From NCBI RefSeq assembly GCF_002154335.2, contig NZ_MTPX02000041.1, positions 62,001 to 126,000 of the forward strand: a stretch of DNA of 64,000 nucleotides, written 5' to 3'. The notes below the pieces were generated by a model, which was not told where the DNA came from, did not search any database, and saw only the letters and a program-made list of their open reading frames with translations. Below, one piece after another: positions 34,882-62,710 of this stretch (the stretch's first letter is position 1; each line of letters starts with the position of its first letter). A program made the translations under genes and the position numbers. This stretch comes from Actinomyces ruminis. Lineage in GTDB: Bacteria > Actinomycetota > Actinomycetes > Actinomycetales > Actinomycetaceae.

Positions 34882-35528
34882 ATGGCAGACACCATCACCG
34901 TCGACGTCGTCGACTCCACCGGCGCCAAGACCGGCACCGTCGAGCTTCCCGGCGAGATCTTCGACGTCGAGCTCAACATCCCCCTGATGCACCAGGTCGT
35001 CGTGGCCCAGCTGGCCGCGGCCCGCCAGGCACCCACGCCACCAAGACCCGCGGCATGGTTCGCGGCGGTGGCCGCAAGCCCTACCGGCAGAAGGGCACCG
35101 GTCGCGCACGCCAGGGTTCCATCCGGGCGCCCCAGTTCACGGGCGGTGGCACCGTGCATGGCCCGCAGCCGCGCGACTACTCCCAGCGCACGCCCAAGAA
35201 GATGAAGGCCGCCGCCCTGCGCTCGGCTCTGTCCGACCGGGCCCGCAACGGTCGCATCCACGTCATCACCGAGTTCGTCACCTCCGAGACGCCGTCGACC
35301 AAGGCGGCCCTCGCCGCTCTGCGCAACCTCACGGACCGCCCGAAGTCCCTGGTGGTTGCCACCGGCGCCGACGACCTCACCCGCCTCAGCCTGCGCAACG
35401 CCCCCGAGGCGCACGTACTCAAGGCCGACCAGCTGAACACCTACGACGTCCTCAACTCCGACGACGTCGTCTTCACCGCCGCCGCCCTGGACGACTTCCT
35501 CGGCAAGGGTGAGGAGGAGTCCAAGTGA
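34882..35528 (+). CDS. rplD: 50S ribosomal protein L4 (one frameshift)
   Basis: L4 lines the exit tunnel, the macrolide region, and in some bacteria represses the S10 operon. The N-terminus [20 protein letters not shown] to [12 protein letters not shown] is in one frame and the rest ([20 protein letters not shown] to [17 protein letters not shown]) in the next. One G lost in the run at 35028-35029 (CAG-GGC) restores [20 protein letters not shown], the conserved loop. Repaired length is about 215 residues. Its stop overlaps the rplW GTG. Confidence 0.96.
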
Positions 35529-48964: not shown

Positions 48965-49337
48965 GTGGCACGCATTTCCGGCGTTGACCTGCCTCGCGAG
49001 AAGCGAGTCGAGGTAGCGCTCACCTACATCTACGGGATCGGACGCACCCGCGCCCAGAAGACTCTTGAGGCCACCGGGGTCAACCCGGACACCCGCGTCA
49101 AGGACCTGACCGAGGACGAGCTGGTCGCGCTGCGCAACCACATCGATTCCAGCTACCAGGTCGAGGGCGACCTGCGTCGTGAGGTCCAGGCGGACATCCG
49201 CCGCAAGATCGAGATCGGCTCCTACCAGGGCCTGCGCCACCGGCGCCACCTGCCGGTCCGCGGCCAGCGCACCAAGACCAACGCCCGCACGCGCAAGGTC
49301 CCAAGCGCACCGTGCCGGTAAGAAGAAGGCCAAGTAA
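48965..49337 (+). CDS. rpsM: 30S ribosomal protein S13 (two frameshifts near the end)
   Basis: S13 forms head-to-50S bridges and contacts the P-site tRNA. GTG 48965 begins [20 protein letters not shown], with [20 protein letters not shown] and [20 protein letters not shown]. The tail is broken twice, at 49297-49298 (AAG-GGT) and 49314 (GTG-GCC), each a lost G. Restoring both gives TNARTRKGPKRTVAGKKKAK and a stop at 49337, the normal end. Unrepaired, the protein ends VPSAPCR. Confidence 0.95.
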
Positions 49338-49955: not shown

Positions 49956-50956
49956 GTGCTCATTGCACAGCGACCCACACTCTCCGAGGAGGTCATTGAG
50001 GAGGACCGCCGCTCGCGGTTCATCCTCGAGCCCCTCGAGCCCGGCTTCGGCTACACGCTCGGAAACTCCCTGCGTCGCACGCTGCTGTCCTCCATTCCGG
50101 GCGCAGCCGTGACCTCCGTCCGCATTGAGGGAGTGCCCCACGAGTTCCGCACCATTCCCGGGGTCAAGGAGGACGTCGCCCAGATCATCCTGAACATCAA
50201 GGAGATCGTCCTGTCGTCCGAGAACGACGAGCCGGTGGTCATGTACCTGCGCAAGTCCGGTCCGGGCGTCGTCGTCGCCGGCGACATCACCCCGCCGGCG
50301 GGCGTGGAGATCCACAACCCCGACCTGGTCATCGCCACCCTCAACGAGAAGGGCAAGCTGGAGATCGAGCTGACCGTCGAACGCGGCCGCGGCTACGTCT
50401 CCGCGAACCAGAACAAGGACCCGAACGCCGAGATCTCCCGGATCCCGGTGGACTCGATCTACTCGCCGGTCAAGAAGGTCTCCTACGCGGTGGAGGCCAC
50501 CCGTGTGGAACAGCGCACGGACTTCGACCGTCTGGTGGTCGACGTGGAGACCAAGGCCTCAATGACGCCGCGCGACGCGCTCGCCTCGGCCGGTAAGACG
50601 CTGGTTGAGCTGTTCGGACTGGCCCGGGAGCTCAACGTCGAGGCCGAGGGCATCGAGGTCGGCCCCTCGCCGATGGACCAGGCCCTGCAGCAGGACCTGG
50701 CCATGATGATCGACGAGCTGGACCTGCAGGCCCGCTCCTCCAACGCCCTCAAGCGCGAGGCATCCACACCGTCGGTGAGCTCGTCGCGCGCAGCGAGGCA
50801 GACCTCCTCGACATCCGCAACTTCGGTGCCAAGTCGATCTCCGAGATCAAGGACAAGCTGGCCGAACTCGGGCTGTCCCTCAAGGGGTCCCCGGTCGACT
50901 ACGCCCCGGAGGGCGACTACACCAACCCCACCTTCAGCGACGAGCAGCAGGCCTGA
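49956..50956 (+). CDS. rpoA: RNA polymerase alpha subunit (one frameshift)
   Basis: Alpha dimers start polymerase assembly, and the C-terminal domain binds UP elements and activators. GTG 49956 begins [20 protein letters not shown], with [20 protein letters not shown] and [22 protein letters not shown] lost at 50759-50760 (GAG-GGC) restores the C-terminal domain [20 protein letters not shown] and [20 protein letters not shown], ending at 50956. Repaired length is about 333 residues. Without repair the DNA-binding domain would be scrambled. Confidence 0.97.
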
Positions 50957-50986
50957 CGCCGGCTCGCCATTCCACTAGGAGACAAC

Positions 50987-51766
50987 ATGCCTCGCCCCAC
51001 CAAGGGTCCCCGGCTGGGTGGATCCCCCCAGCACGAGCGCCACATGCTGGCCAACCTGGCCACGCAGCTCATCGTCCACGAGTCGATCACGACCACGGAG
51101 GCGCGCGCCCGCCGCCTGCGCCCCTACGTCGAGAAGCTCATCACCAAGGGCAAGCGCGGCGACCTCCACGCCCGCCGCACGGTGATGAAGAAGGTGACGG
51201 ACAAGTACGCCGTCTACCGTCTCTTCGACGAGATCGCCCCGCAGATGGCCGACCGCGACGGCGGTTACACCCGCATCGTCAAGACCGCACCGCGCCGGGG
51301 AGACAACGCCCCCATGGCCGTGATCTCGCTGGTGCTGGAGCCGGTCGCCAAGAAGGCAGTCGTCGACGACGCCGTGCGCACCGCCAAGCGTGCGGCCGAG
51401 CAGGCCGTGGCCGAGGTCGAGGAGGCCGCCGCCGAGGTTGAGGCGGAGGAGACCCCCGCCGCTGAGGACGCCGTCGAGGAGACCGAGGCTGTGGCCGAGG
51501 AGACCGCTGCCGAGGCCGACGCAGAGGACGAGGCCTCCGGCAAGCCCGTCTACGCCGGCTCCGTCCGCCTGGAGAAGGGCACCACCGAGGCCCCCGACGC
51601 CGACCATGAGGTCAAGGGCAACGAGGACTCCATGAAGTACCACGTGCCCGGCTCCCGCTGGTACGACAACACGGTGGCCGAGGTCTGGTTCGCCAGCCCC
51701 GAGGACGCCGAGGCCGCGGGCTTCGCCCCCGCCGGCGGTGCCGCCGCGCAGAAGGTCAAGAAGTGA
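50987..51766 (+). CDS. rplQ: 50S ribosomal protein L17 with long C-terminal extension
   Basis: L17 lies near the tunnel exit. The first 120 residues are a normal L17 ([53 protein letters not shown]). The 259-residue total is about twice the family's usual length. A Glu/Ala-rich acidic stretch of about 50 residues is followed by a separate segment [20 protein letters not shown] and [20 protein letters not shown]. That segment looks like the small YHxPGSxWY...AEVWF...AEAAGF domain known from other actinobacterial proteins (sunset-like). The base calls are even through the junction and no frameshift explains it. Confidence 0.95.
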
Positions 51767-51845: not shown

Positions 51846-52604
51846 TCAGCGGCGGGCCATCTCCCAGCAGCGGGCGCCGCCGGTCATGCCCGCCTCATTG
51901 GGCACGACGACGACGTCGTCGCCGACCTTGTCGAGCTGGAAGGCGGTGATGCGGCGGGAATTGCCGCCGCCCAGGTAAAGCCGGTCCCACATGTACATGG
52001 GCCGCAGCGCCTCGACCACACGCCGCACTCGCCGCGACCAGTGGGCGTCCCCCAGGCGCAGCCGCTCGTGCTCGCCGATATAGTCGTCATAGGTGAGTCC
52101 CCAGCGCACCGGCCCCTGGGAGACCTCTACGTGGGGGGCGAGCACGCCGTTGTCGAAGACGGCGTTGCCCAGGCCGGTGCCCAGGGTCACGATCATCTCC
52201 AGGCCGTGCCCGGTGACGACGCCGGCGCCGGCGACCTCGGCGTCATTGAGCACTAGCACCGGGCGGCCGAGGGTCGCCTGGAGGCGACCACCCATGTCGA
52301 AGCGTGCCCAGGCCTCCACCAGTTCGGGCAGCACGCGGGAACGCGGGCCGTCCTTGGTGATGTAGTGGGGGGTGGCGATGACGACCCCGTGGCGGATCAT
52401 GCCGGGCATGCCGACGGTCACCCGGTCGGCGGGCGGCAGTTGATCGGCCAGGTCCTTGATGGTGTCTACCAGCAGCTCGGGCGGCAGCGGGTAGGGGGTG
52501 GGGGTGCGCAGGGCGCGGGAGATGATGGCGCCGTCGGCGTCGAGCACGGAGGCCTTGATGCCGCCGCCGCCGCAGTCGACGCTGAGGGTGGTTGTAGTGG
52601 TCAC
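51846..52604 (-). CDS. ppgK: Polyphosphate glucokinase (ROK family)
   Basis: PpgK phosphorylates glucose with polyphosphate or ATP and is typical of actinobacteria. The 252-residue protein has the phosphate loop LSVDCGGGGIKASVLDADG, VGMPGMIRHGVVIATPHYIT, the sugar-binding NDAEVAGAGVV and a second phosphate motif VTLGTGLGNAVFDNGVL, but lacks the ROK zinc cysteines. It starts at GTG 52604. The cytoplasmic product feeds glycolysis. It is alone on the minus strand between rplQ and truA. Confidence 0.88.
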   Translation of the reverse strand: MTTTTTLSVDCGGGGIKASVLDADGAIISRALRTPTPYPLPPELLVDTIKDLADQLPPADRVTVGMPGMIRHGVVIATPHYITKDGPRSRVLPELVEAWARFDMGGRLQATLGRPVLVLNDAEVAGAGVVTGHGLEMIVTLGTGLGNAVFDNGVLAPHVEVSQGPVRWGLTYDDYIGEHERLRLGDAHWSRRVRRVVEALRPMYMWDRLYLGGGNSRRITAFQLDKVGDDVVVVPNEAGMTGGARCWEMARR

Positions 52605-61449: not shown

Positions 61450-62710
61450 CAGGGGTACGACGGCGGGGCGCCGAGTCCTTGGTTCGCCGACCGAGCCCCT
61501 TCACCTACGTTTTCGGCGGCTTCCTCGCGTTGGTGGGGGTCATGTTTCTGGCCATCGGCTCCCAGCTACTCGCCTTTCGTGTGTCCATGCCGCCGTTCGC
61601 CGTGGCGGTCGGCCTGGCCGTGGCATTGCTGTTGATCGGTGGCGGCCTGGTACCACCGCTCAGACTTCGCACGGTCTTCGACGCCGCCGGCATTCACTCC
61701 CGCGGTGTGCTGCGCACGGTCCACCTGCCCTGGCCCGACTCCCGCACCGCCTTTACCATCAACGTCTCCGAACGGGTCAGAACCGAGAGCGGGCGCACGA
61801 CGGACGTGCTGACCGCCACGGTTGCCCTGGCCACGCCCCAAGGCAACGTAACCCTGGCGGCGCCCCGCATTGCCGCCATGAACCCCAATGGGCTGCGCTC
61901 GCGACTGGAAGCGGAGGTCGATGAGATCTGGGCGTGGGCGCAGGCACGCGGCTACACGCATGGCGTCGACGCCGCGCCAGTCATGTCGATATCACCGCAG
62001 CCACCGTCCGCGCCGGGGAACACCTGTGGGTACGACGCCCCATCCCAGGCGCGTGCAGATGGGCTTTCGCCCGAGGACACGGTCCTGCTGTCTCGTGACC
62101 TCCTGGTCTTCAAGCCGGCGAGAAGTGCTATCCGGCCGGCGATCATTCTTTGCGCCGTATGTTTGGCCCTGGCGGGAGGGCTGCGTCTGCTCACGGTTCT
62201 GGGGCCGCGCTTTCTTCCAGCGCTGTCCGGGCGTTTTCCGGACTCCGGGGCCTTCGCCGGGGTGCCCGTACTGCTGCTGATCTATGTGGCCGGTTACCTC
62301 CTGTTCTCCGTCTTGCGGATCATGAGCACCCGGCTGACCATGTCGCCCGAGGGACTGGTATGGCAAGACAGCTGGCGCACTAGACGGCTGACCTGGCCGC
62401 AGTCGCGCTCGTGCATATTCGTGCTGGCGTCCCACGAATCGGCGCGCACCACGCGTCTCTGCGCCTGCTCACACCCGACGGCGAGGCGCTGCGCGTACCG
62501 GGACTGCACTGGGCATCCCGGGACGAGCGTCAGGCGCTGCTGGCGGCCGAAGCGATGGCGCAGGCGATCTGGGAGTGGGGCGCTTCCCGGGGCGCGGCCC
62601 GCGACGACGGCCTCTACCGCCCTGCCGCTGACGCCGAGGTGGAGCAGCAGCGCCTCGCCACCGCCCAGCGCATCGCGCATCTGCAGGCGCATCCCCAGGA
62701 GCAGCAATGA
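61446..62710 (+). CDS. PH-domain membrane protein, tandem copy 2 (one frameshift)
   Basis: A paralogue of its neighbours with the same helices-PH-helices-PH layout (FTYVFGGFLALVGVMFLAIG; LRTVFDAAGIHSRGVLRTVH; ILCAVCLALAGGLRLLTVLG; RLTMSPEGLVWQDSWRTRRL). The frame breaks near 62453. One G lost (ACG-GCG) restores RTTASLRLLTPDGEALRVPG, matching RTTATVRVLAPDGRTLAVPG in copy 1, and the protein then ends at 62710 after about 421 residues. Without repair an unrelated reading of 300 residues would continue across copy 3. ATG 61446 follows CCCAGGAGCCGCG. Confidence 0.75.

Follow-up and report, generated by a model that had tools for sequence, protein, structure and literature searches.

Why should a ribosomal protein carry a second folded domain at its C-terminus, and what might that domain do on the ribosome? 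It is rare, to our knowledge, for a ribosomal protein to acquire an additional folded domain, and the question is raised here by the rplQ gene of Actinomyces ruminis, located in a stretch of 64,000 nucleotides (positions 62,001 to 126,000 of the forward strand of contig NZ_MTPX02000041.1, assembly GCF_002154335.2), hereafter referred to as the window. Where bL17, uL4, uS2 and bS16 sit on the ribosome is well established, bL17 lying near the tunnel exit. An original prediction, made from the nucleotide sequence and its translations, described this gene as L17 fused to an acidic linker and a compact extra domain, and proposed that the latter would project near the tunnel exit and could bring a factor to nascent chains.

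Architecture of the fused gene

The rplQ open reading frame (Table 1) has the architecture foreseen in the original prediction. Its N-terminal part is assigned to bL17 by two profiles, PF01196 (residues 20-116, 130.6 bits, cut-off 27) and TIGR00059 (124.2 bits, cut-off 70.05), and the rpoA sequence found directly upstream of rplQ fits this identity. The L17 part had been expected to end near residue 120, close to residue 116 at which both profiles stop, while the linker, put at about 50 residues, proved to be nearer 73.

Table 1. Features of the fused rplQ gene, with window positions and the basis of each assignment
Feature	Residues	Window position	Strand	Basis
Fused rplQ ORF		50987..51766	+	ATG start, 259 aa
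bL17 core	1-116	50987..51334	+	PF01196 20-116, TIGR00059 9-116, AlphaFold pLDDT
Acidic Ala/Glu-rich linker	117-189	51335..51553	+	Composition, low pLDDT, variability among homologues
Extended sunset module	190-252	51554..51742	+	Full-length and domain models, A2 alignment
Core sunset domain	209-250	51611..51736	+	NCBIfam NF051437
Stop codon of fused rplQ		51764..51766	+	ORF reading

By composition, the linker comprises 32% Asp plus Glu and 30% Ala, with a net charge of -17, and the module that follows has a net charge of -7; the 259-residue protein contains no cysteine. Both length and sequence of the linker differ widely among homologues, as seen in an alignment of L17 proteins bearing the domain (A3). 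Upstream of the domain, an alignment of 126 rows (A2) presents the lead-in consensus GSxxPxxDGxAPxG, of which the window copy retains GS and the later AP. The uL4 protein of the same genome, whose gene also lies in the window, has no such tail.

No frameshift within rplQ is needed to account for the fusion, as had been stated. Elsewhere in the window, rpoA reads as frameshifted at 50755-50960, the called ORF (49956-50978) having a foreign-looking end and the expected alpha C-terminal sequence lying in another frame from 50759; this is probably a sequencing or assembly error. By eye, the 5' part of uL4 (35000-35060) and the 3' end of S13 (49270-49330) also look frameshifted, and the assembly may lose single bases. 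A minus-strand ORF resembling a ROK-family sugar kinase (51846-52604, by eye) lies between rplQ and a truA-like ORF.

Assignment to the sunset family

A search of the tail against protein domains, the check originally suggested, identified it through the NCBIfam model NF051437, named 'sunset' (residues 209-250, 80.9 bits, cut-off 27, E 5e-23), and returned no significant match in Pfam. The whole protein also matched NF051448, '50S ribosomal protein L17, sunset domain variant', with residues 1-250 covering the entire model (positions 1-229) at 331.6 bits (cut-off 280) and no difference seen between the two; an L17 without the domain (L264) scored 235.8 on this model, below the cut-off. The entry names the architecture, and no statement of function was seen in it. 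Since both models match and sister models exist, the combination of L17 and sunset is already catalogued in NCBIfam. The sister models NF051449, NF051450, NF051451 and NF051433 describe the sunset variants of L4, L20, S2 and ArfC, respectively; they match the window protein partially, sharing the C-terminal acidic linker and sunset, whereas the host protein differs. The NCBIfam scans contained no sunset model for bS16 or NuoE, although such fusions exist.

The literature searches returned nothing on this domain under the name 'sunset domain', and no paper on it under C-terminal extensions of bL17/L17 in actinobacteria. A search on ArfC with OmpATb yielded nothing, and Rv0901 was absent from the papers listed among the matches of a further one. 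Searches on ribosomal domain fusions and on helix-hairpin-helix (HhH) tails each yielded nothing relevant among the matches listed, as judged by title and start of abstract.

Distribution of the domain and of L17 fusions

A genome scan confirmed at least 564 loci bearing the domain. The 80 named loci listed consist of 50 L17, 29 uL4 and one cut off, a split that does not represent host frequencies because only ribosomal copies went into the query. Genera represented among them include Actinomyces, Kocuria, Rothia, Arthrobacter-type genera, Knoellia, Janibacter, Aeromicrobium and Nocardioides, and the top-ranking locus, with 98% over the 48-residue query, comes from Actinomyces glycerinitolerans. 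An assembly join or frameshift in rplQ was considered and is excluded, because many homologues carry the tail in independent assemblies, including these 50 L17 fusions and the L17 of A. glycerinitolerans, 95% identical to that of the window in alignment A3. Such a join, together with homologues lacking the tail, had been named as evidence that would count against the fusion; the latter are indeed numerous.

In a scan of the class, 73 of 394 genomes had a sunset match (107 matches by table sum). All matches except one below the cut-off were fetched, giving 103 distinct frames, among which 14 L17, 21 uL4 and 3 uS2 were recognised because they resemble seeds of known identity; the 38 frames, tallied by hand, occur in 34 genomes. 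Among the 394 genomes of the class, 385 have an L17 match and 14 have L17 fused to sunset. In the family, sunset matches were present in 11 and L17 matches in 99 of 101 genomes, and a comparison of their places put L17 fusions in four, all belonging to the genus of the window, where four of the six sampled genomes carry the fusion and two lack it.

The best-scoring 30 of the 99 family L17s all have net negative tails, and 26 of these lack sunset. Hence, on the sequences sampled, an acidic L17 tail is common and sunset is a patchy addition or survivor. In these 26 loci, the bL17 without sunset has an Ala/Glu-rich, net negative tail like that of the window protein, but not the folded end domain. 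In Arthrobacter sp. 35W and Aeromicrobium stalagmiti, sunset is found on uL4 and is absent from L17. Sunset also occurs outside Actinomycetes, because one of 14 control genomes, that of Bacillus subtilis, matched it over the cut-off (E<=0.001).

Other hosts of the module

The same kind of tail occurs in relatives on uL4 (50S), on uS2 and bS16 (30S) and on NuoE of respiratory complex I. Fusions to bS16 were recognised with Pfam in Flexivirga, Knoellia and Janibacter (L226, L233, L235, L238), and fusions to NuoE in Knoellia, Janibacter and Phycicoccus, either with Pfam (L190, L220, L241) or by similarity (L202, L203). No case of L20 with sunset was recognised, in a set where L20 was absent from the seeds and many frames are unclassified. 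Apart from L17, uL4 and uS2, the largest cluster in the class includes 26 frames, with LGFP repeats in the one member scanned, and other clusters were named from single members as GmrSD_C, thermonuclease-like and ArfC; Pfam gave no match for L216 and several other frames. The expectation that related domains would occur on exported-looking or nucleic-acid-related actinobacterial proteins agrees with the LGFP-repeat, GmrSD_C and thermonuclease-like proteins, one representative each.

Some membrane-anchored-looking proteins end in sunset, with four copies in L222, three in L224 and two in L207. These frames (L222, 721-3798; L224, 742-2586; L207, 1495-2586) are of low complexity, with an N-terminal hydrophobic segment preceding the two to four sunset copies, and the ArfC N-terminal matches of L222 and L207 fall under the cut-off. 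In nine further copies (L038, L039, L041, L046, L053, L057, L103, L105 and L247), a cysteine precedes the domain and a second one occurs, as CF or FC, where ribosomal copies show WF; judging from this pattern, they are possibly a disulfide version.

A parallel may be provided by HhH tails on L21, S2 and NuoE in other phyla. With an HhH consensus, the best PDB matches were 8yy9 chain O, a reaction-centre O chain, and 9wqv chain a, a complex I subunit, the later part of each being matched, and no bacterial ribosomal protein was present among the 59 PDB matches. These matches are a possible parallel to NuoE with its sunset tail.

Predicted fold and comparison with Ada

Structure prediction of the domain alone, based on the 126-row alignment, gave a pLDDT of 81 and a pTM of 0.69, and the AlphaFold model of the full protein a mean pLDDT of 83.7 and a pTM of 0.50. 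In the latter, ten-residue block means are 87-97 over residues 11-120 of the core region and 62 in the first block; a helix is predicted at 123-153 in the linker, pLDDT falls below 50 at 155-179, and values of 88-95 are reached at 191-250. The extended module is modelled with a lead-in strand (192-199), further strands and a short helix (238-243). The low pTM of the full model and the weak stretch in the linker are consistent with a domain lacking a fixed placement.

No solved structure of sunset was found: 75 PDB sequences match the protein at E<=0.001, and among the 60 listed and examined no best stretch extends beyond residue 182. The Foldseek search with the model placed two E. coli N-Ada entries at the top (E 0.91 and 1.0, probability 0.30 and 0.33), the other 23 rows having a probability of 0.02 or less, and Ada chains were the only rows with Z of at least 2 in VIA, with weak values of 3.3-3.9. 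No Pfam family matches more of the 126 domain members than PF02805 (Ada_Zn_binding; 15 at E<=10, best 2.7e-4); the window domain itself gave no row at E<=10 (cut-off 23 bits), HMMER filters dropping most matches with E above about 0.1. With hhalign, an Ada profile reached 82% over 45 columns against A2, and 19% over 14 columns, within the sunset part, against A3.

The Ada comparison set consisted of 18 segments out of 20 loci, chosen by the motif C-x3-C plus C-x2-C, whose cysteines we take to be zinc ligands. Having none of the four cysteines, the window protein lacks the Ada zinc site. The likeness to the N-terminal zinc domain of E. coli Ada (1u8b, 1wpk, 1zgw; PF02805) is weak, and the sunset tail differs in its missing zinc cysteines, its acidic net charge and its ribosomal host. 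These comparisons are suggestive: sunset may be related to the N-terminal fold of Ada, in a version that binds no zinc.

The module in solved ribosomes of Cutibacterium acnes

The only PDB sequence matching the sunset profile up to E 10 is uL4 of Cutibacterium acnes (8crx chain e, residues 244-290, E 1e-24), present in six entries, namely 8crx and five further ones. As in the window protein, the domain is located on a C-terminal extension, the host being uL4 and not bL17; the bL17 of C. acnes (187 aa) aligns with the window L17 only up to residue 182. The part of the source available describes the uL4 extension as solvent-exposed, 100 residues longer than that of E. coli, absent from the density and likely disordered, and that part makes no mention of a folded domain (PMC10085706). 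The missing density, as described there, would be expected of a folded domain that is loosely tethered, and just as much of a tail that is disordered.

Conservation, selection and loss

The domain is conserved in all 43 rows of alignment A3, the window included, and 12 columns are invariant across 16 chosen copies from bL17, uL4 and uS2. Substitution was compared between the window and seven Actinomyces loci as raw, uncorrected pN and pS. Beyond residue 189, pN was 0.025-0.112 and pS 0.103-0.377, with pN lower than pS in all seven comparisons; the corresponding ranges were 0.019-0.070 and 0.124-0.297 for the core, and 0.043-0.320 and 0.333-0.513 for the linker. The linker exceeded the domain in pN in every comparison. 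In terms of pN/pS, the domain was more constrained than the linker in five comparisons out of seven, the linker having the lower ratio in the other two, and the core was more constrained than the domain in six. Because of its conservation in A3 and the uniform excess of pS over pN, the tail is, on these comparisons, not a chance product.

Within the genus, the L17 of genome G477 (L313) has 168 residues and an end, EDTAEAAGFEPAGGADAQ, which resembles only the last part of sunset, apparently reflecting an in-frame loss of the domain, while that of G522 has no trace of it. Since one keeps an end remnant and the other nothing, the domain is dispensable in these two genomes.

Similar tails on uL4 and bL17 within one genome

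In genome G305, the tails of uL4 and bL17 share a near-identical block covering linker and domain, with the same codon at 86 of 91 identical residues and a nucleotide identity of 0.877 over the aligned stretch. A contrasting uL4/bL17 pair from Knoellia has the same codon at 49 of 63 residues (nucleotide identity 0.695), and the within-genome pairs of G375 (60 of 73, 0.761) and G402 (53 of 67, 0.773) fall between the two, their codon sharing being about as frequent as in the Knoellia pair. We infer that the near-identity in G305 reflects copying.

A shuffle test over 33 pairs gave a within-genome mean identity of 0.710 against 0.661 for shuffled pairs (sd 0.011), with none of 500 shuffles as high. 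The shuffles ignore kinship, and the sample of 19 hand-picked genomes has few uS2 comparators, draws five genomes each from Knoellia and Nocardioides (G287 and G176 being put in the latter by guess) and includes a uL4 copy that is decayed (G176). For no more than 11 of 45 domains does a different host of the same genome come closer than the same host from another genus, and the tails of Knoellia and Janibacter follow their own host gene. Given this small fraction and the limits of the shuffle sample, copying of tails between ribosomal genes appears to be occasional and not the rule.

Discussion

We propose, with about an even chance of being right, that the tail is a flexible docking module, loosely tethered on the ribosome surface. 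The acidic Ala/Glu-rich leash, variable in sequence, would hold the folded and negatively charged sunset domain away from that surface, and the domain would bind one or more cellular partners; its value would lie in presentation on ribosomes and not in rRNA contact. The host ribosomal protein would matter little provided that its tail reaches solvent, which would explain the presence of the module on bL17, uL4, uS2 and bS16. Conservation of the domain alongside variation of the linker argues for a docking role, and the block shared by uL4 and bL17 in G305 fits a unit able to move between sites. Against it stand the lack of any partner found, the patchy presence of the domain and its absence from two of six L17s in the same genus. 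Since 26 of 30 negative family tails have no domain, the acidic tail may have a role of its own; moreover, copying is clear in G305 only, and in two of seven comparisons the linker has a lower pN/pS than the domain.

The main rival to a docking module, which we consider unlikely although deserving of serious attention, is a near-neutral passenger, spreading by recombination between similar acidic tails, doing little, and tolerated because it hangs in solvent. Patchiness in class and family genomes, the remnant in G477, uL4 copies that look decayed (L106 and L107 among them) and the near-identical tails of G305 would all be expected of such a passenger; the excess of pS over pN beyond residue 189, the 12 columns kept invariant on three hosts, and the range of genera (from Actinomyces to Nocardioides) and of hosts would not. 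An improbable alternative is that an Ada-like fold binds mRNA, rRNA or DNA as an arm tethering ribosomes. N-Ada chains are the best fold matches and sunset also occurs on thermonuclease-like and GmrSD_C proteins, but similarity to Ada is weak, its zinc site is lacking, and both linker and module of the window protein are negatively charged; among the 126 domain members, a net positive charge was found in only 9 segments of about 70 residues, or in 15 when the last 46 residues were considered.

Two further readings concern where the module would bring the ribosome. Single-pass membrane proteins that contain between one and four sunset domains might hold sunset-bearing ribosomes by pairing, as the multi-copy proteins L222, L224 and L207 could suggest, together with a basic stretch after their N-terminal hydrophobic segment which, read from sequence, points to a C-in topology. 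This is quite improbable: the genome of the window, 82.6% complete, has a single sunset match, and in 20 of 46 named genomes, selected because they have sunset on L17 or uL4, that fusion is the sole match (E<=0.001), so pairing among different sunset proteins is not a general requirement. Least probable of all is the recruitment originally proposed, in which the L17 tail specifically brings a factor to nascent chains. The place of bL17 beside the tunnel exit speaks for it, but the module is also borne by uL4 and, on the 30S subunit, by uS2 and bS16, because of which the idea is unsupported as a general mechanism, and uL4 in place of L17 is the carrier in Arthrobacter sp. 35W and A. stalagmiti. 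Recruitment of some factor by the sunset tail, as distinct from that location, may still occur.

The docking module may be placed in a broader frame, which we advance as a doubtful but not implausible conjecture: leash and sunset would form a transferable ribosome-surface tag, copied between uL4 and bL17, usable on either subunit and shared with NuoE and single-pass membrane proteins, and in Actinomycetes the organisation of ribosomes and membrane-linked machines would depend on a common partner or on the domain itself. In this class, one small domain is carried by four or more different ribosomal proteins, across both subunits, and it is already included in the sequence of a solved ribosome, in C. 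acnes uL4, where the available part of the source treats it as likely disordered. If sunset does nothing, it would show cleanly how a passenger domain can spread from one ribosomal gene to another; if instead it recruits a factor, it would provide a handle on the partners of the actinobacterial ribosome, removable without touching the core.
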